A stretch of 36,677 nucleotides of DNA. Source: Maricaulis sp. GTDB lineage: Bacteria; Pseudomonadota; Alphaproteobacteria; Caulobacterales; Maricaulaceae. The stretch covers positions 1-36,677 of the forward strand of contig NZ_JASBRQ010000067.1 in NCBI RefSeq assembly GCF_030149425.1, read 5' to 3'. This document shows, in pieces, positions 8,583 through 33,851 of the stretch. The position numbers and the translations under genes are program-made. Each line of letters begins with the position of its first letter. The first letter of the stretch is position 1. The notes below the pieces were generated by a model. It saw only the letters and a list, made by a program, of their open reading frames with translations. It was not told where the DNA came from and searched no databases.

Positions 8583-8753
8583 CGCCTACCAAGCGCGGGG
8601 TCATTCCCGCCATCTATGAACCACGTCCGGTGTCGGCATCACCGGATCAGCACTGACGATCCCGAAGGGGGCTGTCCTACCGGTTATGCGGGCGCTTGCG
8701 TGCAAGGCCTGGAATTGGCGGCAGTCTCGCTGAATGAAACGGAGACGAGAATT

Positions 8754-10670
8754 ATGAGTAAGGTCATCGGCATCGACCTGGGTACCACCAACTCCTGTGT
8801 CGCAGTCATGGACGGCGATCAGCCCAAAGTCATCGAGAACTCCGAAGGCGCCCGGACCACCCCGTCCGTGGTCGCATTCGCGGAAGATGGCGAGCGCCTG
8901 ATCGGCCAGCCGGCCAAGCGCCAGGCGGTCACCAACCCGGACCAAACCTTCTTCGCCATCAAACGCCTGATCGGCCGCAATATGGACGATCCGACGGTCA
9001 AAAAAGACATCGACATGGTCCCTTACAAGATCGTGTCGTCGGACAATAATGCTGCCTGGGTCCAGGGCCGTGACAAGAAATACGCCCCGTCGGAAATCTC
9101 CGCCTTCATCCTGCAGAAGATGAAGGAAACGGCTGAAAGCTATCTCGGTTCTGACGTCACCCAAGCGGTGATCACGGTTCCGGCCTATTTCGACGATGCC
9201 CAGCGTCAGGCCACCAAGGACGCCGGCAAGATTGCCGGCCTGGAAGTCCTGCGCATCATCAACGAGCCGACCGCGGCTGCCCTGGCTTATGGTCTGGAGA
9301 AGAATGACGGCAAGACGATCGCTGTCTTCGACCTCGGCGGCGGTACCTTTGACGTTTCCGTTCTGGAAATCGGCGACGGCGTTTTTGAAGTGAAGGCCAC
9401 CAATGGTGACACCTTCCTCGGCGGTGAGGATTTCGACCTGCGGATCGTCGAATATCTCGCGGACGAGTTCAAAAAGGAAAACGGCATTGATCTGCGCCAG
9501 GACAAGCTGGCCCTGCAGCGCCTGAAGGAAGAAGCGGAAAAGGCCAAGAAAGAGCTCTCCTCGGCGAGCGCTTACGAAGTCAACCTGCCCTTCATCACCG
9601 CGGACGCGTCTGGCCCGAAACACCACAATATCAAGCTCTCCCGCGACAAGCTGGAAGCTCTGGTCGACGATCTGGTCAAGCGTACCCTCGAGCCCTGCAC
9701 GAAGGCGCTCAAGGATGCCGGCCTGTCGCCGTCCGACATTGATGACGTGGTCCTCGTTGGCGGCATGACCCGCATGCCGAAAGTCCAGGAAGCCGTGAAG
9801 TCCTTCTTCGGCAAGGACCCGCACAAGGGCGTGAATCCGGATGAAGTGGTCGCCATGGGTGCCGCCATCCAGGCTGGCGTTCTGCAGGGTGATGTCAAAG
9901 ACGTCCTCCTGCTCGACGTGACCCCGCTTTCCCTGGGTATCGAAACCCTCGGCGGCGTCTTCACCCGCCTGATCGAGCGCAATACGACGATCCCGACCAA
10001 GAAGTCCCAGGTCTTCTCGACCGCTGACGACAATCAGACGGCCGTGACCATCCGGGTCTCCCAGGGTGAGCGCGAAATGGCGGCGGACAACAAGCTGCTG
10101 GGTCAGTTTGATCTGGTCGGCATCCCGCCGGCACCGCGCGGCATGCCGCAGGTCGAGGTGACCTTCGACATCGACGCCAACGGTATCGTCAACGTGTCCG
10201 CCAAGGATAAGGCGACCGGCAAGGAACAAGCGATCCGTATCCAGGCCTCTGGCGGCCTGTCCGATGAGGACATCGACGCCATGGTCCAGGACGCTGAAAG
10301 CCATGCTGACGAAGACAAGAAGAAGCGCGAGCTGGTAGAAGCCCATAACGGTGCGGAAGCCATGGTTCACCAGACCGAAAAACAGCTCGAAGAGTTTGGT
10401 GACAAGGTTCCGGCGGCTGACAAGGAAGCCATCGAAACGGCTCTGAACGAACTCAAAGAGGTCAAGGATGGCGAAGACCTCGAAGCCATCCAGCAAAAGA
10501 CCCAGGCGCTGGTCCAGGCAACCATGAAACTCGGCGAAGCCATGTATGCTGCACAACAGGCGGAAGCCGGTGCGGAAGGCGAGACGAGCAACTCGGCAGC
10601 CGACGACGAAGTGGTCGACGCGGAATTCTCCGAAGTCGACGACAAGGACGACGCCAAGAAAGACGCTTAA
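8754..10670 (+). CDS. dnaK: molecular chaperone DnaK (Hsp70)
   Basis: DnaK binds exposed hydrophobic segments and folds or holds proteins using ATP, with DnaJ and GrpE. From ATG 8754 the protein has 638 residues, the usual length. Motifs include [17 protein letters not shown] at the start, the phosphate loop [32 protein letters not shown], and the linker [19 protein letters not shown]. The acidic C-terminus ends in [10 protein letters not shown] rather than EEVKDKK. An in-frame upstream start at 8616 would add 46 non-homologous residues and is rejected; GGAGA precedes ATG 8754. A sigma-32-like promoter lies upstream and a hairpin follows. Confidence 0.98.
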
Positions 10671-10726: not shown

Positions 10727-11590
10727 ATGAGCGATCTGGATCCGGTGACGGCACCTTATGGTGCATTTTCACTGCCACCCTTTCAGGAGTGGTTGCGCCG
10801 GGCCGCGATGAAACTGCCCTCTGACCGGCTGCGCCGGAGCGCGGAATCGGTCGTGCGCCGCATCCTGATGTCCGGTGGTCGCAATATCGCCGATGTCGAG
10901 GTCTTTCCGGGTCAGCATGCCCGCGTTCACATGCGGGATAATCGCTGTGAAAAGCGCGCGTTTGTCGGCTCGAAAACCTGGGATAGCGGCGAGCGCGCAG
11001 CCATCCGCGAGGCGATTGCACAGGCGCCGGCAGGCCGCGACATCGTTTTCGTTGATGCGGGCGCCAATGCCGGGCTTTACACCCTCTCCGTTCTCGCAGA
11101 CGCCAAGTCGTTGGACCGCACCGTCAAAGTGGTCGCGGTCGAGCCGGACATGGAAAACCGCCGCCGGCTGGAGTTCAATCTGGCCGCATCCGGCGCGCAG
11201 AGCGTCACCGTCGCCCCCTTCGCGCTCGGCGCCGAAGAGGGCCTGGTCGACATGCTCCAGGACGATACTAATCGCGGCGAGGTTCGTATCGACGCAGACA
11301 GCACTACGGGGACAATCCCGATGAAACCGCTCTCCATGGTGCTGGAGAATGCCGGTGTCGACGCCGTCGACATCATGAAAATGGATATTGAAGGCTTCGA
11401 GGAACCCGTCCTCACCGCCTTCTTCGACATGTGGCCGCGCCAAAAATGGCCGCGAACCATATTGCTGGAAACGCTGCATGCGGGAGCTGCCATCACGGAT
11501 GGAGCCCCGGGTCTGTGCCTCGAGCGCGGCTATCAAGTCGCCAGCCAGATGCGGCAGAACGCGGTCCTGGTACTGCGCGATGGTGAGTAG
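10727..11590 (+). CDS. FkbM-family SAM-dependent methyltransferase
   Basis: This 287-residue protein has a Rossmann methyltransferase core: the SAM motif IVFVDAGANAGLYTLSVLA around residues 106-124, VVAVEPDMENRRRLEFNL, and IMKMDIEGFEEPVL around residues 218-231. The last is the FkbM-type DxEG motif. The N-terminal 90 residues are basic and less typical. FkbM enzymes are O-methyltransferases acting on sugars, lipids or natural products; the substrate here cannot be told. ATG 10727 follows GGGGAC. It sits between dnaK and dnaJ and ends three bases before dnaJ, so it is likely co-transcribed with dnaJ. Confidence 0.85.
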   Translation: MSDLDPVTAPYGAFSLPPFQEWLRRAAMKLPSDRLRRSAESVVRRILMSGGRNIADVEVFPGQHARVHMRDNRCEKRAFVGSKTWDSGERAAIREAIAQAPAGRDIVFVDAGANAGLYTLSVLADAKSLDRTVKVVAVEPDMENRRRLEFNLAASGAQSVTVAPFALGAEEGLVDMLQDDTNRGEVRIDADSTTGTIPMKPLSMVLENAGVDAVDIMKMDIEGFEEPVLTAFFDMWPRQKWPRTILLETLHAGAAITDGAPGLCLERGYQVASQMRQNAVLVLRDGE

Positions 11591-14720: not shown

Positions 14721-14751
14721 TATCGCCTCAACTTGCCTGTCTGGGCGAACA

Positions 14752-14769
14752 CTGACATATCCGTGTCAG
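14752..14769. promoter_or_regulatory. palindromic operator candidate upstream of the YafY/WYL regulator
   Basis: CTGACA at 14752-14757 is the inverse of TGTCAG at 14764-14769, separated by six bases (TATCCG). It ends 21 bases before the regulator ATG at 14791, in promoter position. An 18-base palindrome directly before a helix-turn-helix gene suggests autoregulation; this is inference. Confidence 0.5.
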
Positions 14770-14790
14770 GGTAAGAAGGCAGGAGATGTC

Positions 14791-15480
14791 ATGAGGCGTG
14801 CGGAACGTTTGATCCGGATCGTGCAGGCGCTGCGCGAAGCCGCGCCCGGTGCCGTCACGGCCCAGGAAATGGGCGCCAGGTTCGAGGTCTCCGAGCGCAC
14901 GGTTTATCGCGATATTGCCCACCTTGTGGAATCCGGTGCGCCGATTGATGGCGAGGCCGGTGTCGGCTACGTCCTGCGGCCCGGCTTTGACCTGCCGCCG
15001 CTTAACTTCTCCTTCGAACAACTCGACGCCCTCGCGCTTGGCGCCCGTTTCGTCCGCGCCACGGCCGACCGCGACCTGGCAGCAGCGGCCGGTGAGGCCC
15101 TGGCCAAGATCGAACACGCCCTGCCGGACACCCACAAGGAACGCCTGCGCTCGGCCCCGCTATTCGCCTCGCTGCTCGATGAAAGCGTCCGCCCGGAAGC
15201 CTTCGCCCCGGTGCGCAATTCCATCACCGACAAACGCAAGCTGCGCATCCGCTATAATTCGCTGCAAGACGAGCAGACCACCCGCATCATCCGGCCGCTG
15301 GCGCTGACCTGTTTCGGCCGCGTCTGGCTGCTTACGGCCTGGTGTGAGCTGCGCGATGATTTCCGCTATTTCCGCGCCGACCGCATCGAACGCCTGACCG
15401 TGCTGGCGGAAAGCTTCGAGGACGAACCGGGCAAGCGCTTCGCCGATCTGCAGGCGCGCGATGAGGGCGCGGCCGGGTAA
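14791..15480 (+). CDS. YafY-type HTH/WYL-domain transcriptional regulator
   Basis: The 229-residue protein has an HTH_11 winged helix (residues 1-65, with VTAQEMGARFEVSERTVYRDI and the wing GAPIDGEAGVGYVLR) and a WYL-type ligand-binding domain (residues 135-215, with IRYNSLQDEQTTRIIRPLAL and FRADRIERLTVL). WYL domains are thought to sense nucleic-acid or small-molecule ligands. It is convergent with a glyoxalase I gene that ends three bases beyond its stop; YafY-type regulators are often paired with VOC proteins, so control of that gene is plausible but unproven. A palindrome lies in its promoter region. Confidence 0.9.
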   Translation: MRRAERLIRIVQALREAAPGAVTAQEMGARFEVSERTVYRDIAHLVESGAPIDGEAGVGYVLRPGFDLPPLNFSFEQLDALALGARFVRATADRDLAAAAGEALAKIEHALPDTHKERLRSAPLFASLLDESVRPEAFAPVRNSITDKRKLRIRYNSLQDEQTTRIIRPLALTCFGRVWLLTAWCELRDDFRYFRADRIERLTVLAESFEDEPGKRFADLQARDEGAAG

Positions 15481-23234: not shown

Positions 23235-23263
23235 CTTGATTGATCCGGCCATCACGGCCAAAT
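23235..23263 (+). promoter_or_regulatory. weak sigma-32-like promoter candidate for hslV
   Basis: CTTG at 23235-23238, in the good -35 context CCTTGAT, is followed after 18 bases by GCCAAAT, a poor match to the heat-shock -10. It would start transcription just before the parS site. Support is position plus the known heat-shock nature of hslVU. Confidence 0.3.
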
Positions 23264-23268
23264 GCTGG

Positions 23269-23282
23269 GTTTCACGTGAAAC
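23269..23282. other. parS: parS site (ParB-binding centromere)
   Basis: GTTTCACGTGAAAC is a perfect 14-base palindrome identical to the core of the widely conserved bacterial parS site. It lies between the hslV promoter region and its Shine-Dalgarno (GGAG from 23283), about 10 kb from the probable origin, the usual distance. ParB would load here to form the partition complex. Only one copy was seen in this window; parA and parB themselves are not here. Confidence 0.9.
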
Positions 23283-23294
23283 GGAGCCCGGCCC

Positions 23295-23855
23295 ATGACC
23301 TCTTCCAGCACCGATGCATCGAACTGGCGCGGCACGACAATACTTGCCGTACGCAAGGGCGGAAAGCTCGTTCTGGCCGGTGACGGACAGGTCTCGATCG
23401 GCCCTACGGTCATGAAAGGCAACGCAAAAAAGGTTCGTCGCCTGGCTGGCGGCCAGGTCGTTGCCGGCTTTGCCGGAGCCACGGCGGATGCGTTTGCCCT
23501 GTTCGAGCGCCTGGAAGGCAAGCTGGAGCAATACCCGGCCCAACTCGCTCGCGCCTGTGTCGAACTGGCCAAGGACTGGCGTACGGACCGCTATCTGCGG
23601 CGTCTGGATGCGATGCTGGTCGTGGCCGACAAATCGGCAACCTTCCTGCTCACCGGGGCGGGCGATGTGCTTGAACCGGAAGACGGAGTCGTCGCCGTCG
23701 GCTCGGGCGGAAACTACGCTCTGTCAGCGGCCCGCGCGCTCTATGACTATGAAGCCGACCCGGAGCTCATCGCCCGGAAGGCGATGGAAATCGCGGCCAA
23801 GATCTGCGTCTACACCAATGAAAACCTGACGATCGAGATCCTGGAAGAGGGCTAA
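23295..23855 (+). CDS. hslV: ATP-dependent protease subunit HslV (ClpQ)
   Basis: HslV is the threonine peptidase of the HslVU protease that degrades misfolded and regulatory proteins after heat shock. The 186-residue protein has a short pro-segment, then the mature N-terminus [21 protein letters not shown], where the first Thr (residue 14) is the nucleophile. Conserved blocks include [29 protein letters not shown], and [19 protein letters not shown] 23295 has GGAG eight bases upstream, touching the parS palindrome. Its partner hslU starts 1.2 kb further on, behind two minus-strand genes. Confidence 0.97.
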
Positions 23856-23896
23856 ACCGGCGCGAATTGCGCGCGATCTGTGTGTGGTTCCGGTTT
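23854..23896 (+). terminator. possible stem-loop after hslV
   Basis: AAACCGG at 23854-23860 overlaps the hslV stop and is complementary to CCGGTTT at 23890-23896; inside is a GCGC-rich segment (GCGCGAATTGCGCGC). There is no T-run. It could separate hslV from the convergent gene at 23968. Confidence 0.35.
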
Positions 23897-23967
23897 GACC
23901 GCAGCCCCCGTCCGGTCCGCTTTGCGTGCGCTGGCGGAGGGGTTTGTGCGGGCGACCCTGAAAACCC

Positions 23968-24447
23968 CTAACTGACCAGCGGGCCACATTCGGCTTGCGC
24001 CGGTTCGCCATCGATCTGGATGATCTCCAGCAGGATCGCCGAGCCCAGCCGCATCTGGGTCTGGAAATAATACCGGCCGGAGGGCTGGCCATCGCGCAAG
24101 AGGTTGATACGGACCTGGCGTACCGCACCGAACACCCGAACCCGATAGCCACGCAGAAACTCTAGCGGGTCCCCGCCCAGCCGCACCGCGAGTTGGGCCC
24201 GCACCTCCGGCACCAGTTCCACATTCAATGAACCCCGATCACGATACTCGGGCATGGAGTTGAGAAAGCCCCGCGCACCATCGGCCCCGGCCCCGCACAC
24301 ATTCATCTCGACCCACATCGGCGCCAGCGGTGCATGCGGCTGGGCGATGGACTGGCGGATCGCCTCTTCGGCTTCGACCGCTTCGGGCAAGGCCAAGGCC
24401 GGGCCGGAGAAGAAGAAGAAAAGAGCAGGCAGGATTGTTCGGAGCAT
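23968..24447 (-). CDS. secreted protein of unknown function
   Basis: From ATG 24447 the protein has 159 residues with a signal peptide (MLRTILPALFFFFSGPALA, probable cut before LPEA). The mature part contains two Cys (VEMNVCGAG and QAECGPLVS) that could form a disulfide and is otherwise beta-like with RYYFQTQMRLGSAILLEII. A longer in-frame start at 24510 would spoil the signal peptide. I do not recognise a family. It is one of two minus-strand genes placed between hslV and hslU. Confidence 0.65.
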   Translation of the reverse strand: MLRTILPALFFFFSGPALALPEAVEAEEAIRQSIAQPHAPLAPMWVEMNVCGAGADGARGFLNSMPEYRDRGSLNVELVPEVRAQLAVRLGGDPLEFLRGYRVRVFGAVRQVRINLLRDGQPSGRYYFQTQMRLGSAILLEIIQIDGEPAQAECGPLVS

Positions 24448-24539
24448 GAGATCGGCAGCAAAACTGGATTTTGACGTGTTCTGCCGACTATATACACGCT
24501 TTGATCTCAACGGGGTGGCAAGGTGCAGATCGTGGCCGG

Positions 24540-24968
24540 CTAGGTCGCGAATAACTGCGTTTCGATATCGCGGAAGGTCTTGAATTCCAGGGCATTACCA
24601 GCCGGATCGCGGACAAAGAACGTGCCCTGCTCACCGGGCTGACCGGCAAAGCGGATATAGGGTTCAACGACGAAATCCGTGCCGGCCGCCTTGAAACGTT
24701 CGCCAAGGCTTTCCCACGCCTCCCAGTCCAGAACCAGACCGAAATGGCGGACCGGAACAGACTTGCCATCGACGCCGGCCGTCTGGCTGTCACTGCATTC
24801 CTCGGGCGAGAGATGGGCGACGACCTGGTGGCCGAACATGTCAAAATCGATCCAGCGATCCGAGGACCGGCCGATCCGGCAGCCAACCAGGCCGGTATAG
24901 AAGGCGCGGGCCGCTTCAAGATCATCAACCGGGAAGGCGAGGTGGAAGCGCGGCGGGGTCTGGCTCAT
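24540..24968 (-). CDS. VOC-family (glyoxalase/bleomycin-resistance-like) protein
   Basis: The 142-residue protein has two VOC-type half-modules: FHLAFPVDDLEAARAFYTGLVGCRIGR at the N-terminus (shown in part) and FFVRDPAGNALEFKTFRD near the C-terminus. Likely metal ligands are His in RFHLAF, His in VRHFGLVLD and Glu in NALEFK. This group includes isomerases, dioxygenases and resistance proteins; substrate unknown. The start is either ATG 24968 or ATG 24974; the latter has AAGG closer. It lies on the opposite strand between hslV and hslU. Confidence 0.85.
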   Translation of the reverse strand: MSQTPPRFHLAFPVDDLEAARAFYTGLVGCRIGRSSDRWIDFDMFGHQVVAHLSPEECSDSQTAGVDGKSVPVRHFGLVLDWEAWESLGERFKAAGTDFVVEPYIRFAGQPGEQGTFFVRDPAGNALEFKTFRDIETQLFAT

Positions 24969-25048
24969 GAGCATTCTGCCTTTCAGGACTGGTCCTAGCG
25001 GGTCTGCCTGATTACATGACAGGCGAAGTGATACAAACAAGAGCGATC

Positions 25049-26356
25049 ATGACCGATTTTTCTCCGCGCGAAATTGTCTCCGAACTCGACCGTTTCATCG
25101 TCGGCCAGGCTGATGCCAAGAAAGCCGTAGCCCTGGCCCTGCGCAATCGCTGGCGCCGCAAACAGCTCGACGCAGATCTCGCCGAGGAAGTGACGCCGAA
25201 AAACATCCTCATGATCGGACCGACCGGTGTCGGCAAGACCGAGATCTCGCGCCGCCTGGCCAAGCTCGCCAAGGCCCCCTTCATCAAGATCGAAGCGACC
25301 AAGTTCACCGAGGTCGGCTATGTCGGCCGTGACATTGATCAGATCGCCCGCGACCTAGTCGAGGTTGCCATCCACCTCGTGCGCGAACGCAAGCGCGAAG
25401 AGGTCAAGGCCCAGGCCGAGGCGCATGCCGAAGAGCGTGTGCTCGATGCCCTGGTGGGCCCCGGCGCCGGTGAATCCACTCGCGACTCCTTCCGCAAACG
25501 CCTGCGCACTGGTGAGCTCAACGACAAGGACGTCGAGATCCAGCTCGCCGAAGCCAGCGGCTCACCGCTGCAAATGCTCGATATTCCGGGCATGCAGGGC
25601 GGCGCCGGCGTCCTCAATCTGGGTGATATCTTCGGCAAAGGCTTCCCGCAGCAGACCAAGACCCGCCGCATGAAAGTCAAGGATGCTTACGAGCCGCTGG
25701 TCGCCGAAGAGGCTGACAAGCTGCTCGATGACAGCCAGATCACGGCCGAGGCCATCAAGCTGGCGGAGAATGAAGGCATCGTCTTCCTTGACGAGATCGA
25801 CAAGATCGCGGCTCGCTCCGAGGCCCGCGGCGCCGATGTGTCCCGTGAAGGCGTGCAGCGCGACCTGCTGCCGCTGATCGAGGGCACGACGGTCACCACC
25901 AAGCACGGCGCGATCAAGACCGACCATATCCTGTTCATCGCCTCGGGCGCTTTCCATGTCGCCAAACCCTCCGACATGCTGCCGGAGCTACAAGGCCGCC
26001 TGCCGATCCGGGTCGAGCTGTCCGCCCTGACCCAGGATGATTTCAAGCGCATTCTGACCGAGCCGGAAGCCAATCTGGTACGCCAGTACACCGCCCTCAT
26101 CGGTACCGAAGATGTCACGTTGAACTTCACCGATGACGCCATCGACGCGATTGCCGAACTGGCGGCAGAGGTGAACGCCTCGGTCGAGAATATCGGTGCC
26201 CGCCGCCTGCAGACGATCATGGAAAAACTGGTCGAGGAGATTTCCTTCACCGCTTCCGATCGCGCCGGTGAAGCGATTGAAATCACGGCCGATTATGTTC
26301 GCGAAAATGTCGGCGAACTGGCCAAGAATGCCGATCTGAGCAAGTTTATTCTCTGA
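25049..26356 (+). CDS. hslU: ATP-dependent protease ATPase subunit HslU (ClpY)
   Basis: HslU is the AAA+ unfoldase that feeds substrates to HslV. From ATG 25049 the protein has 435 residues, the usual length. It begins with [19 protein letters not shown]; the Walker A is [17 protein letters not shown] (about residues 53-69), the pore loop [14 protein letters not shown] follows, and the Walker B is [12 protein letters not shown]. Sensor and C-terminal parts ([23 protein letters not shown], given in part) are intact, and the C-terminus LSKFIL matches the HslV-docking tail. Upstream in-frame start at 25016 has no good ribosome site. Confidence 0.97.
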
Positions 26357-32576: not shown

Positions 32577-33415
32577 GCGCCCTTGCTCCGCTTGTCGTTG
32601 AGAAGGTTGATGATTTTCGCCGCGGTTTCTTCCACAGAACGCCGGGTCACATCAATCGATGCCCAGCCATGCTTGGCAAACAGGCGCTTGGCATGCAGCA
32701 CCTCCTCGCGCACGGAAAAATCGTCGACATAGTCGGTATCGCGATCCTCATTCAGGCTCAAAAGCCGGTTACGGCGGATCTGGACGATACGCTCCGGCGA
32801 TGCGGTAAGGCCGACAACGAGCGGGTTTTTCAGGGAATAGACCTGTTCCGGCAGCGGTACGCTCTGCACCAGTGGAATATTGGCGGCGCGATAGCCGCGA
32901 TGGGCCAGATAGATGGAGGTCGGGGTTTTCGAGGTCCGGCTGACACCCAGCAACAGGATATCCGCGCTTTCAAAATCCTCTCCCTGACCATCATCATGCG
33001 CCATGGTGTAGTTCAGCGCCTCGATGCGGCGGAAGTATTCGGCATCGAGCGAACGCTGGGCACCGGCGCGGCTCGCGACCGGCCGGCCGAGATAGGCACT
33101 GAGCGTGGCGAGCATGGGATCAAGCACGGCAATCGCCGGCGTTCCCAATTCCATGCACCGGGTTTCCAATTGCCGCCGCAGATCCGGATTGACGATGGTA
33201 TACATGACGATACCCGGATAGGCCTCAATCTCCTCGAGCACATGCGTCAGCTGGCGGGTGGAACGGACCAGGGCGTATAGATGTTCCAGCGGATTGGCGC
33301 CCTCGAACTGGGCCACCGAGGCGCGCATGACTTCCATCAAGGTCTCGCCCGTCGAGTCGGACACCATGTGAATATGGAAATTGGTCTCGAAAAGCGGGGT
33401 TTCAGCGTCGGTCAT
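32573..33415 (-). CDS. pyruvate, phosphate dikinase (or PEP synthase) regulatory protein, DUF299
   Basis: The 280-residue protein is a bifunctional kinase/pyrophosphorylase that switches pyruvate, phosphate dikinase or PEP synthase off by ADP-dependent phosphorylation and on again by phosphate. The family start (FHIHMVSDSTGETLMEVMRA) and the P-loop ADILLLGVSRTSKTPTSIYLA (about residues 149-169) are present, as are IPLVQSVPLPEQVYSLKNP and RNRLLSLN. This is the homologue of the Caulobacter gene next to the origin. It is transcribed away from the origin region and starts at its left edge. Confidence 0.95.
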   Translation of the reverse strand: MTDAETPLFETNFHIHMVSDSTGETLMEVMRASVAQFEGANPLEHLYALVRSTRQLTHVLEEIEAYPGIVMYTIVNPDLRRQLETRCMELGTPAIAVLDPMLATLSAYLGRPVASRAGAQRSLDAEYFRRIEALNYTMAHDDGQGEDFESADILLLGVSRTSKTPTSIYLAHRGYRAANIPLVQSVPLPEQVYSLKNPLVVGLTASPERIVQIRRNRLLSLNEDRDTDYVDDFSVREEVLHAKRLFAKHGWASIDVTRRSVEETAAKIINLLNDKRSKGA

Positions 33416-33851
33416 CGCAGCGGCCTGAACGTGTTTACCATTTGTTAATAAGTTGGGGAATTTTCCTCAATCACCGCAAGCGGAAAATCCGCCTGTGGGT
33501 ATGACCGGGTGCTACCCAACCTCATCCACAGAGTCTTCCACAGTTCGGGGCAATGTGTACAAGCCTGTGAACAGAAAAATCTGTGGACGGGACTGCGCAA
33601 GTTTTGCTCAGTTTTTCCACATTCTATGGTCACATAAACTATTGTTTTAATGAGAGTAATTGAGTTGTCCGGATTGTCCTGTCTGGAATTGTCCAGAGCT
33701 CGGTCCTACCGTCGAATTATCCGCGCTCTGAGGGAAAGCCATCTTCCCCCGAAACTCACGGCACAACGACTCCGACTCTTTCTTCATTCTTATTTAGAGA
33801 TATGAAAACGCCGCATTGAATTGGGCTGATAACAGCCCTAATCAGACCGGT
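33416..33851. other. oriC: probable chromosomal replication origin (oriC)
   Basis: These 436 gene-free bases separate the divergent PPDK-regulator gene and hemE, the place of the Caulobacter origin. DnaA-box-like sites cluster: TCATCCACA (33522-33530), TCTTCCACA (33534-33542), TTTTCCACA (33613-33621) and the reverse TGTGGGTAT (33494-33502) and TGTGGACGG (33582-33590). A CtrA-like TTTA-N7-TTAA lies at 33434-33448. An AT-rich stretch at about 33631-33664 may unwind. GANTC (CcrM) sites occur at 33531, 33768 and 33774. Assignment is by motifs and position, not by experiment. Confidence 0.85.

Follow-up and report, generated by a model that had tools for sequence, protein, structure and literature searches.

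Among the described systems close to the one considered here is the chromosomal parS cluster of Caulobacter crescentus, which likewise belongs to a ParABS system with a closely related ParB. According to those parts of PMC5815017 that deal with parS placement, the Caulobacter sites are found roughly 8 kb away from the origin, an additional parS cluster is tolerated best when it is close to the native one, and in tests in E. coli ParB extended no further than some 2 kb from a single parS. Another precedent comes from Pseudomonas aeruginosa, whose parS3 and parS4 are, like the site described below, origin-proximal, intergenic and located before genes. In the sections of PMC5521831 devoted to these two sites, the adjacent genes rise in expression upon loss of parB or of parS, an excess of ParB represses both promoters provided that parS is intact, and some of the adjacent, ParB-repressed genes have putative stress roles. 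These are other genes, and the expression effects there were measured, whereas the Maricaulis case is known from sequence only. Among the papers listed by our literature searches, judged by titles and abstract openings, none reported Maricaulis parS sites or a parS linked to hslV.

Results

A perfect palindromic 14-bp parS core, GTTTCACGTGAAAC, is located at positions 23269-23282 (assigned to no strand) of the analysed stretch of 36,677 nucleotides of Maricaulis sp. DNA, called the window below. The initial annotation had placed such a palindrome in the hslV leader, in contact with the Shine-Dalgarno sequence, and both statements hold: the Shine-Dalgarno-like GGAG (23283-23286, plus strand) begins at the very next base, with a gap of zero, and the hslV ATG follows 8 nt past it, at 23295. 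The leader site is the sole match to the 14-mer in the window at up to one mismatch; none of 100 dinucleotide-preserving shuffles of the window contained such a match, and from base composition the 14-mer is expected 5.7e-5 times per window and 0.005 times per genome.

The 16-bp parS consensus is TGTTTCACGTGAAACA, and the full 16-bp form is not required for parS status. At hslV both outermost bases differ from it (GG..CG), leaving the full 16-mer incomplete, unlike 17 of the 19 parAB-side sites (listed for loci L040-L056), where it is present. Position 1 of the site numbering in the relevant part of PMC7383237 is a guanine, which we identify with the initial G of the 14-mer, and the deviating outer bases would then fall outside the numbered positions.

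In the genome from which the window derives (assembly of 88 contigs, 94.9% complete) the 14-mer at up to two mismatches occurs in six places, of which three are perfect, none has one mismatch and three have two. The further copies that the initial annotation had suggested looking for do exist: besides the perfect one in the window there are two on contig C20, near parAB, one in the mnmE-mnmG gap and one within the start of rsmG. This contig carries mnmE, mnmG, rsmG, parA and parB, in agreement with the earlier remark that parAB lies outside the window. Its ParB aligns with the Caulobacter ParB of known structure (6t1f, E 6.1e-73). R173 and G201 are described in the corresponding part of PMC7383237 as contacting parS and absolutely conserved in ParB, and six further contact residues, including G170, are named there as conserved; in our alignment, read by eye, R173 and G201 are kept in the Maricaulis protein, as are five of the other six, with serine at the G170 position. 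Another contig of the same genome (G000:C51:12051-12311, L008) shows one more ParB-like match, a weak one that stays under the family cut-off, within a 608-residue open frame.

The replication origin is presumably located between ppsR and hemE, as we assume from the Caulobacter-like gene order. The window has its densest cluster of DnaA-box-like sequences here (10 boxes, with two mismatches allowed, in the 400 bp that begin at 33343, against an average of 0.6), and the gap between ppsR (minus strand) and hemE (plus strand) is among the most AT-rich stretches of the window. At up to one mismatch the whole window has 3 DnaA boxes for 2.6 expected, i.e. no excess, and it has no CtrA-type TTAA-N7-TTAA site. 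From the gene order and the DnaA-box-like cluster we infer an origin in the ppsR/hemE intergenic region at 33416-33815, without strand assignment. The hslV site then stands 10.3 kb away in the window, close to the roughly 10 kb first estimated. In the three long-contig genomes where bracketing was measured (G005, G002 and G004; parAB is on a separate contig in the window's own genome and in G007), the inferred origin lies in all three between the hslV site, at 9.4-10.0 kb, and the two parAB-side sites, at 7.4-10.3 kb. This arrangement differs from Caulobacter, where the ParB zone as described in part of PMC5815017 is on the left arm, in that the inferred origin separates the hslV site from the parAB-side sites.

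Identical copies of the core in the hslV leader were found in five of 19 Maricaulis genomes (the present one, G000, together with G007, G005, G002 and, on the minus strand, G004), and in all five it is kept together with GGAG. Every one of them has the same bases in the 20 columns that start one position ahead of parS and run to the end of GGAGC, and the same GGCCAAATGCT upstream, whereas the fourfold-degenerate sites of hslV are only 37-49% identical between the three lineages to which these genomes belong; such invariance against such divergence argues that the hslV parS is under selection. Outside the genus, no perfect parS was found in the hslV leader of 40 genomes with an HslV match in our sample of the order, 24 of them assessed by reading of flanks (11 and 13, with an upstream stretch of about 180 nt in the case of G020) and the other 16 from where their perfect sites lie. 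Among the non-Maricaulis genomes G029 comes nearest, its three perfect sites being located downstream of hslV at distances of 3 to 5.4 kb. Among the 80 named loci, the leader site appears only in L065 (G007) and L067 (G005).

On the trees, the presence of the hslV site needs one change. In one tree the five genomes form a grade, with supports of 43 and 59; in the second they group together with support 69/87, and one change is enough in 99% of 200 bootstrap trees. The five may thus be a clade or a basal grade, and one gain, or a basal gain with one loss, would both be compatible with the trees. We had considered treating the five genomes as a proven clade and dropped this, given the support of 69/87 in one tree and the grade (43, 59) in the other.

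Most of the remaining genomes possess a similar site elsewhere. The form GTT[GCA]CACGTGAAAC, changed at the fourth core base only, is present in 12 of the 19 Maricaulis genomes (outside the window's own genome, the genome-wide search covered fourth-base changes of the core rather than every one-mismatch form). In 10 of the 14 genomes that lack the hslV site, this one-mismatch parS precedes an HTH-WYL regulator gene, at 80 to 118 nt from its start; dapB flanks the site on the other side in seven of the ten, the stretches read for G011, G018 and G012 not including it. In all six genomes measured, this WYL-side site and the parAB-side sites flank the inferred origin on opposite sides, the former 19.6-23.0 kb out, so the right-arm sites keep no fixed symmetry about the origin. 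For G008, G012 and G016, where the site and hslV are on different contigs, the arm was taken from gene order, and G013, with hslV and the site on one contig, is outside the six. By place, the GTT[GCA] form of G003 and G017 sits among the parAB-side sites instead.

The GTT[GCA] form is absent from all five genomes with the hslV site. Their WYL gap contains, in four of the five, nothing closer to the core than 5 mismatches, and G004 has its WYL gene at a different place on the contig. In the window the gap between dapB and the WYL gene, which is the alternative parS place in the ten others, spans 14721-14790 (no strand), and the gene itself 14791-15480 on the plus strand (Pfam PF13280, PF08279); the present genome has no parS upstream of it, no 14-mer of the 330 nt ahead of its start coming closer than 6 mismatches. 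Exactly one of the two right-arm sites is thus found in 15 of the 19 genomes. Since the label changes once on the tree, this exclusivity reflects few events, maybe one or two, and not 15. Neither site is present in G003, G017, G010 and G006 (4/19), by which a right-arm parS is not indispensable; the WYL gap holds a two-mismatch form in G003, only the inner CACGTGAA in G017 and no parS in G010 (best 5 mismatches), and the G006 assembly has no WYL gene.

We also asked whether the number of perfect sites compensates for the missing leader site and abandoned the idea, as the counts show no simple trade. Each of the five genomes with the hslV site has 3 perfect sites; the 14 without it have 2 in eight cases, 3 in three, 4 in one, and 1 and 0 in the last two, whose assemblies are 65% and 69% complete. 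As a separate observation, CTGACA/TGTCAG words occur in 2 to 4 copies within the 330 nt before the WYL gene in 16 of the 17 Maricaulis genomes read, G002 having none. They may represent a candidate operator of the WYL regulator (window area 14721-15480), and in ten genomes the one-mismatch parS lies among them.

Contact of parS with GGAG is also found beyond the genus. Three genomes of g21, another genus of this order (L201, L202, L204), have the same GTTTCACGTGAAACGGAG 7-9 nt before an ATG that, unlike in Maricaulis, belongs not to hslV but to an apparent small gene beside mnmE, its gene status being judged by eye. The exact 18-mer from which these g21 cases were drawn occurs in 13 of 398 genomes of the order: five times in an hslV leader, seven times beside mnmE or mnmG as identified by protein match, and in G017 within the mnmG-rsmG-parA stretch. 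Hence, leader placement of parS is not special to hslV.

The gene behind the site, hslV (23295-23855, plus strand), encodes the peptidase subunit of HslVU (NCBIfam NF003964, E 2.2e-83), and hslU (25016-26356, plus strand; TIGR00390) its ATPase subunit. The distance between the two genes varies widely in Maricaulis, being 1.2 kb here (23856-25015), some 4.1 kb in G013 and as much as 6.5 kb in G003 (L146, L154). A putative heat-shock-like hslV promoter, CTTGAT-N17-CCAAAT, is suggested by its motif at 23235-23263 of the plus strand. It is the single match to this motif on the plus strand of the window, where the heat-shock promoter pattern has no second match, for example before dnaK. Of the 19 Maricaulis leader rows, 17 show TTGAT and GCCA[AC]AT, and the remaining two (G015, G012) are misanchored. 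Compared with the RpoH1 consensus CTTGAA-N15-16-CCTATAT, as quoted in the relevant part of PMC4843759, the box fits only partially, with a spacing of 17 and a poor -10, and the promoter call is a weak one. The -10-like CCAAAT box is 5 nt away from parS in four of the five genomes with the site and 9 nt away in G004.

Discussion

The hslV-leader palindrome looks like a chromosomal parS, judging by its core match, by a ParB with the key residues in the same genome, by its proximity to the presumed origin and by conservation beyond neutral divergence. From our analysis, it would be logical to suggest, and we consider it likely, that it is a genuine chromosomal parS acting as an extra site of ParB nucleation and clamp loading on the arm opposite to parAB and mnmG, for which the hslV leader is mainly a tolerated address. 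ParB dimers would bind the parS core and close with CTP, and the closed ParB would then slide away from the site, into hslV and, upstream, into the EAL gene, where it would add to the segregation complex and possibly load SMC; by means of sites on both arms, ParB-loaded DNA would bracket the origin. Selection would keep a ParB loading site on the arm opposite to parAB, the address being free to change. The limited spread of ParB and the tolerance of a second cluster near the native one, as reported for Caulobacter in part of PMC5815017, fit a cheap extra site nearby. An occupied parS just past the -10-like box may also damp hslV transcription as a side effect, which, with P. aeruginosa as a precedent, we see as plausible.

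The same damping could be the very reason for which the site is kept, if ParB bound at the start site represses hslV and so couples HslVU to the segregation state or to the supply of ParB and CTP. The geometry speaks for such an operator: parS starts 5-9 nt past the -10-like box and ends at GGAG, by which it would cover the likely start site. Precedents are also available, since ParB represses promoters through intergenic parS3 and parS4 in P. aeruginosa (PMC5521831, in the part on these sites) and KorB, a clamp of the ParB family, acts as a repressor (as described in part of PMC11790492). However, the leader site is missing from 14 of the 19 Maricaulis genomes and the perfect site from all 40 non-Maricaulis genomes with an HslV match, 10 of those 14 have a near-parS at another gene, and in G004 the spacing from the box to parS is off by 4 nt; in P. 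aeruginosa itself a changed parS3 left the activity of the reporter promoter unaltered in the control strain without ParB excess, according to the same part of PMC5521831. Three things argue against hslV control as the selected purpose, namely the g21 leaders, a spacing that varies and the choice of another gene by related species. The near-parS at the WYL gene, on the same arm wherever it was measured, favours right-arm ParB loading over such control. Both this near-parS at another gene and the g21 leaders speak for a role in segregation, for which the leader would be a place that is tolerated. We regard an operator function as unlikely. In its fullest version, which we likewise hold to be doubtful, ParB would actually repress HslVU in the five genomes, which represent three early-branching Maricaulis lineages, through a start-covering parS and would tie the protease supply to ParB occupancy near the origin, while related lineages put their right-arm parS before the WYL gene.

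Far less credible is that the palindrome is kept not as a ParB site but as an RNA hairpin beside the ribosome site, where it would serve the leader as a thermometer or as a switch of translation. The leader RNA is predicted to fold into GUUUC-ACGU-GAAAC in all five genomes, and hslV is a heat-shock gene, but the hairpin is weak alone (-2.3 kcal/mol), loop and stem are invariant with no compensatory change, and the letters are exactly those of parS, which has its other two copies here inside rsmG and between mnmE and mnmG; we dropped this reading as weak and devoid of compensatory change. Chance or inherited neutral sequence, which the presence in only 5 of 19 genomes, perhaps of one clade, might suggest, is hardly believable with 0.005 copies expected per genome and 20 columns unchanged against 37-49% fourfold-site identity between lineages.

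One genus thus offers a natural comparison in which an additional right-arm parS is at either of two places, or is missing. It allows one to ask how ParB foci and SMC loading are affected when parS is present on either side of the origin, and if occupancy by ParB costs or controls its host gene. Should ParB be a true repressor of hslV, protease supply would be linked to ParB occupancy near the origin.

Some details of the gene content of the window concern other features. The 466-residue frame at 28445-29845 matches SecB only at residues 302-452, and its listed start is probably not that of SecB. Similarly, the DnaK family match in the frame at 8616-10670 begins at residue 47, and the true start is probably further in. 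Between dnaK and dnaJ, and in the same direction, an FkbM-type methyltransferase gene is located at 10727-11590, seemingly an unusual insertion.
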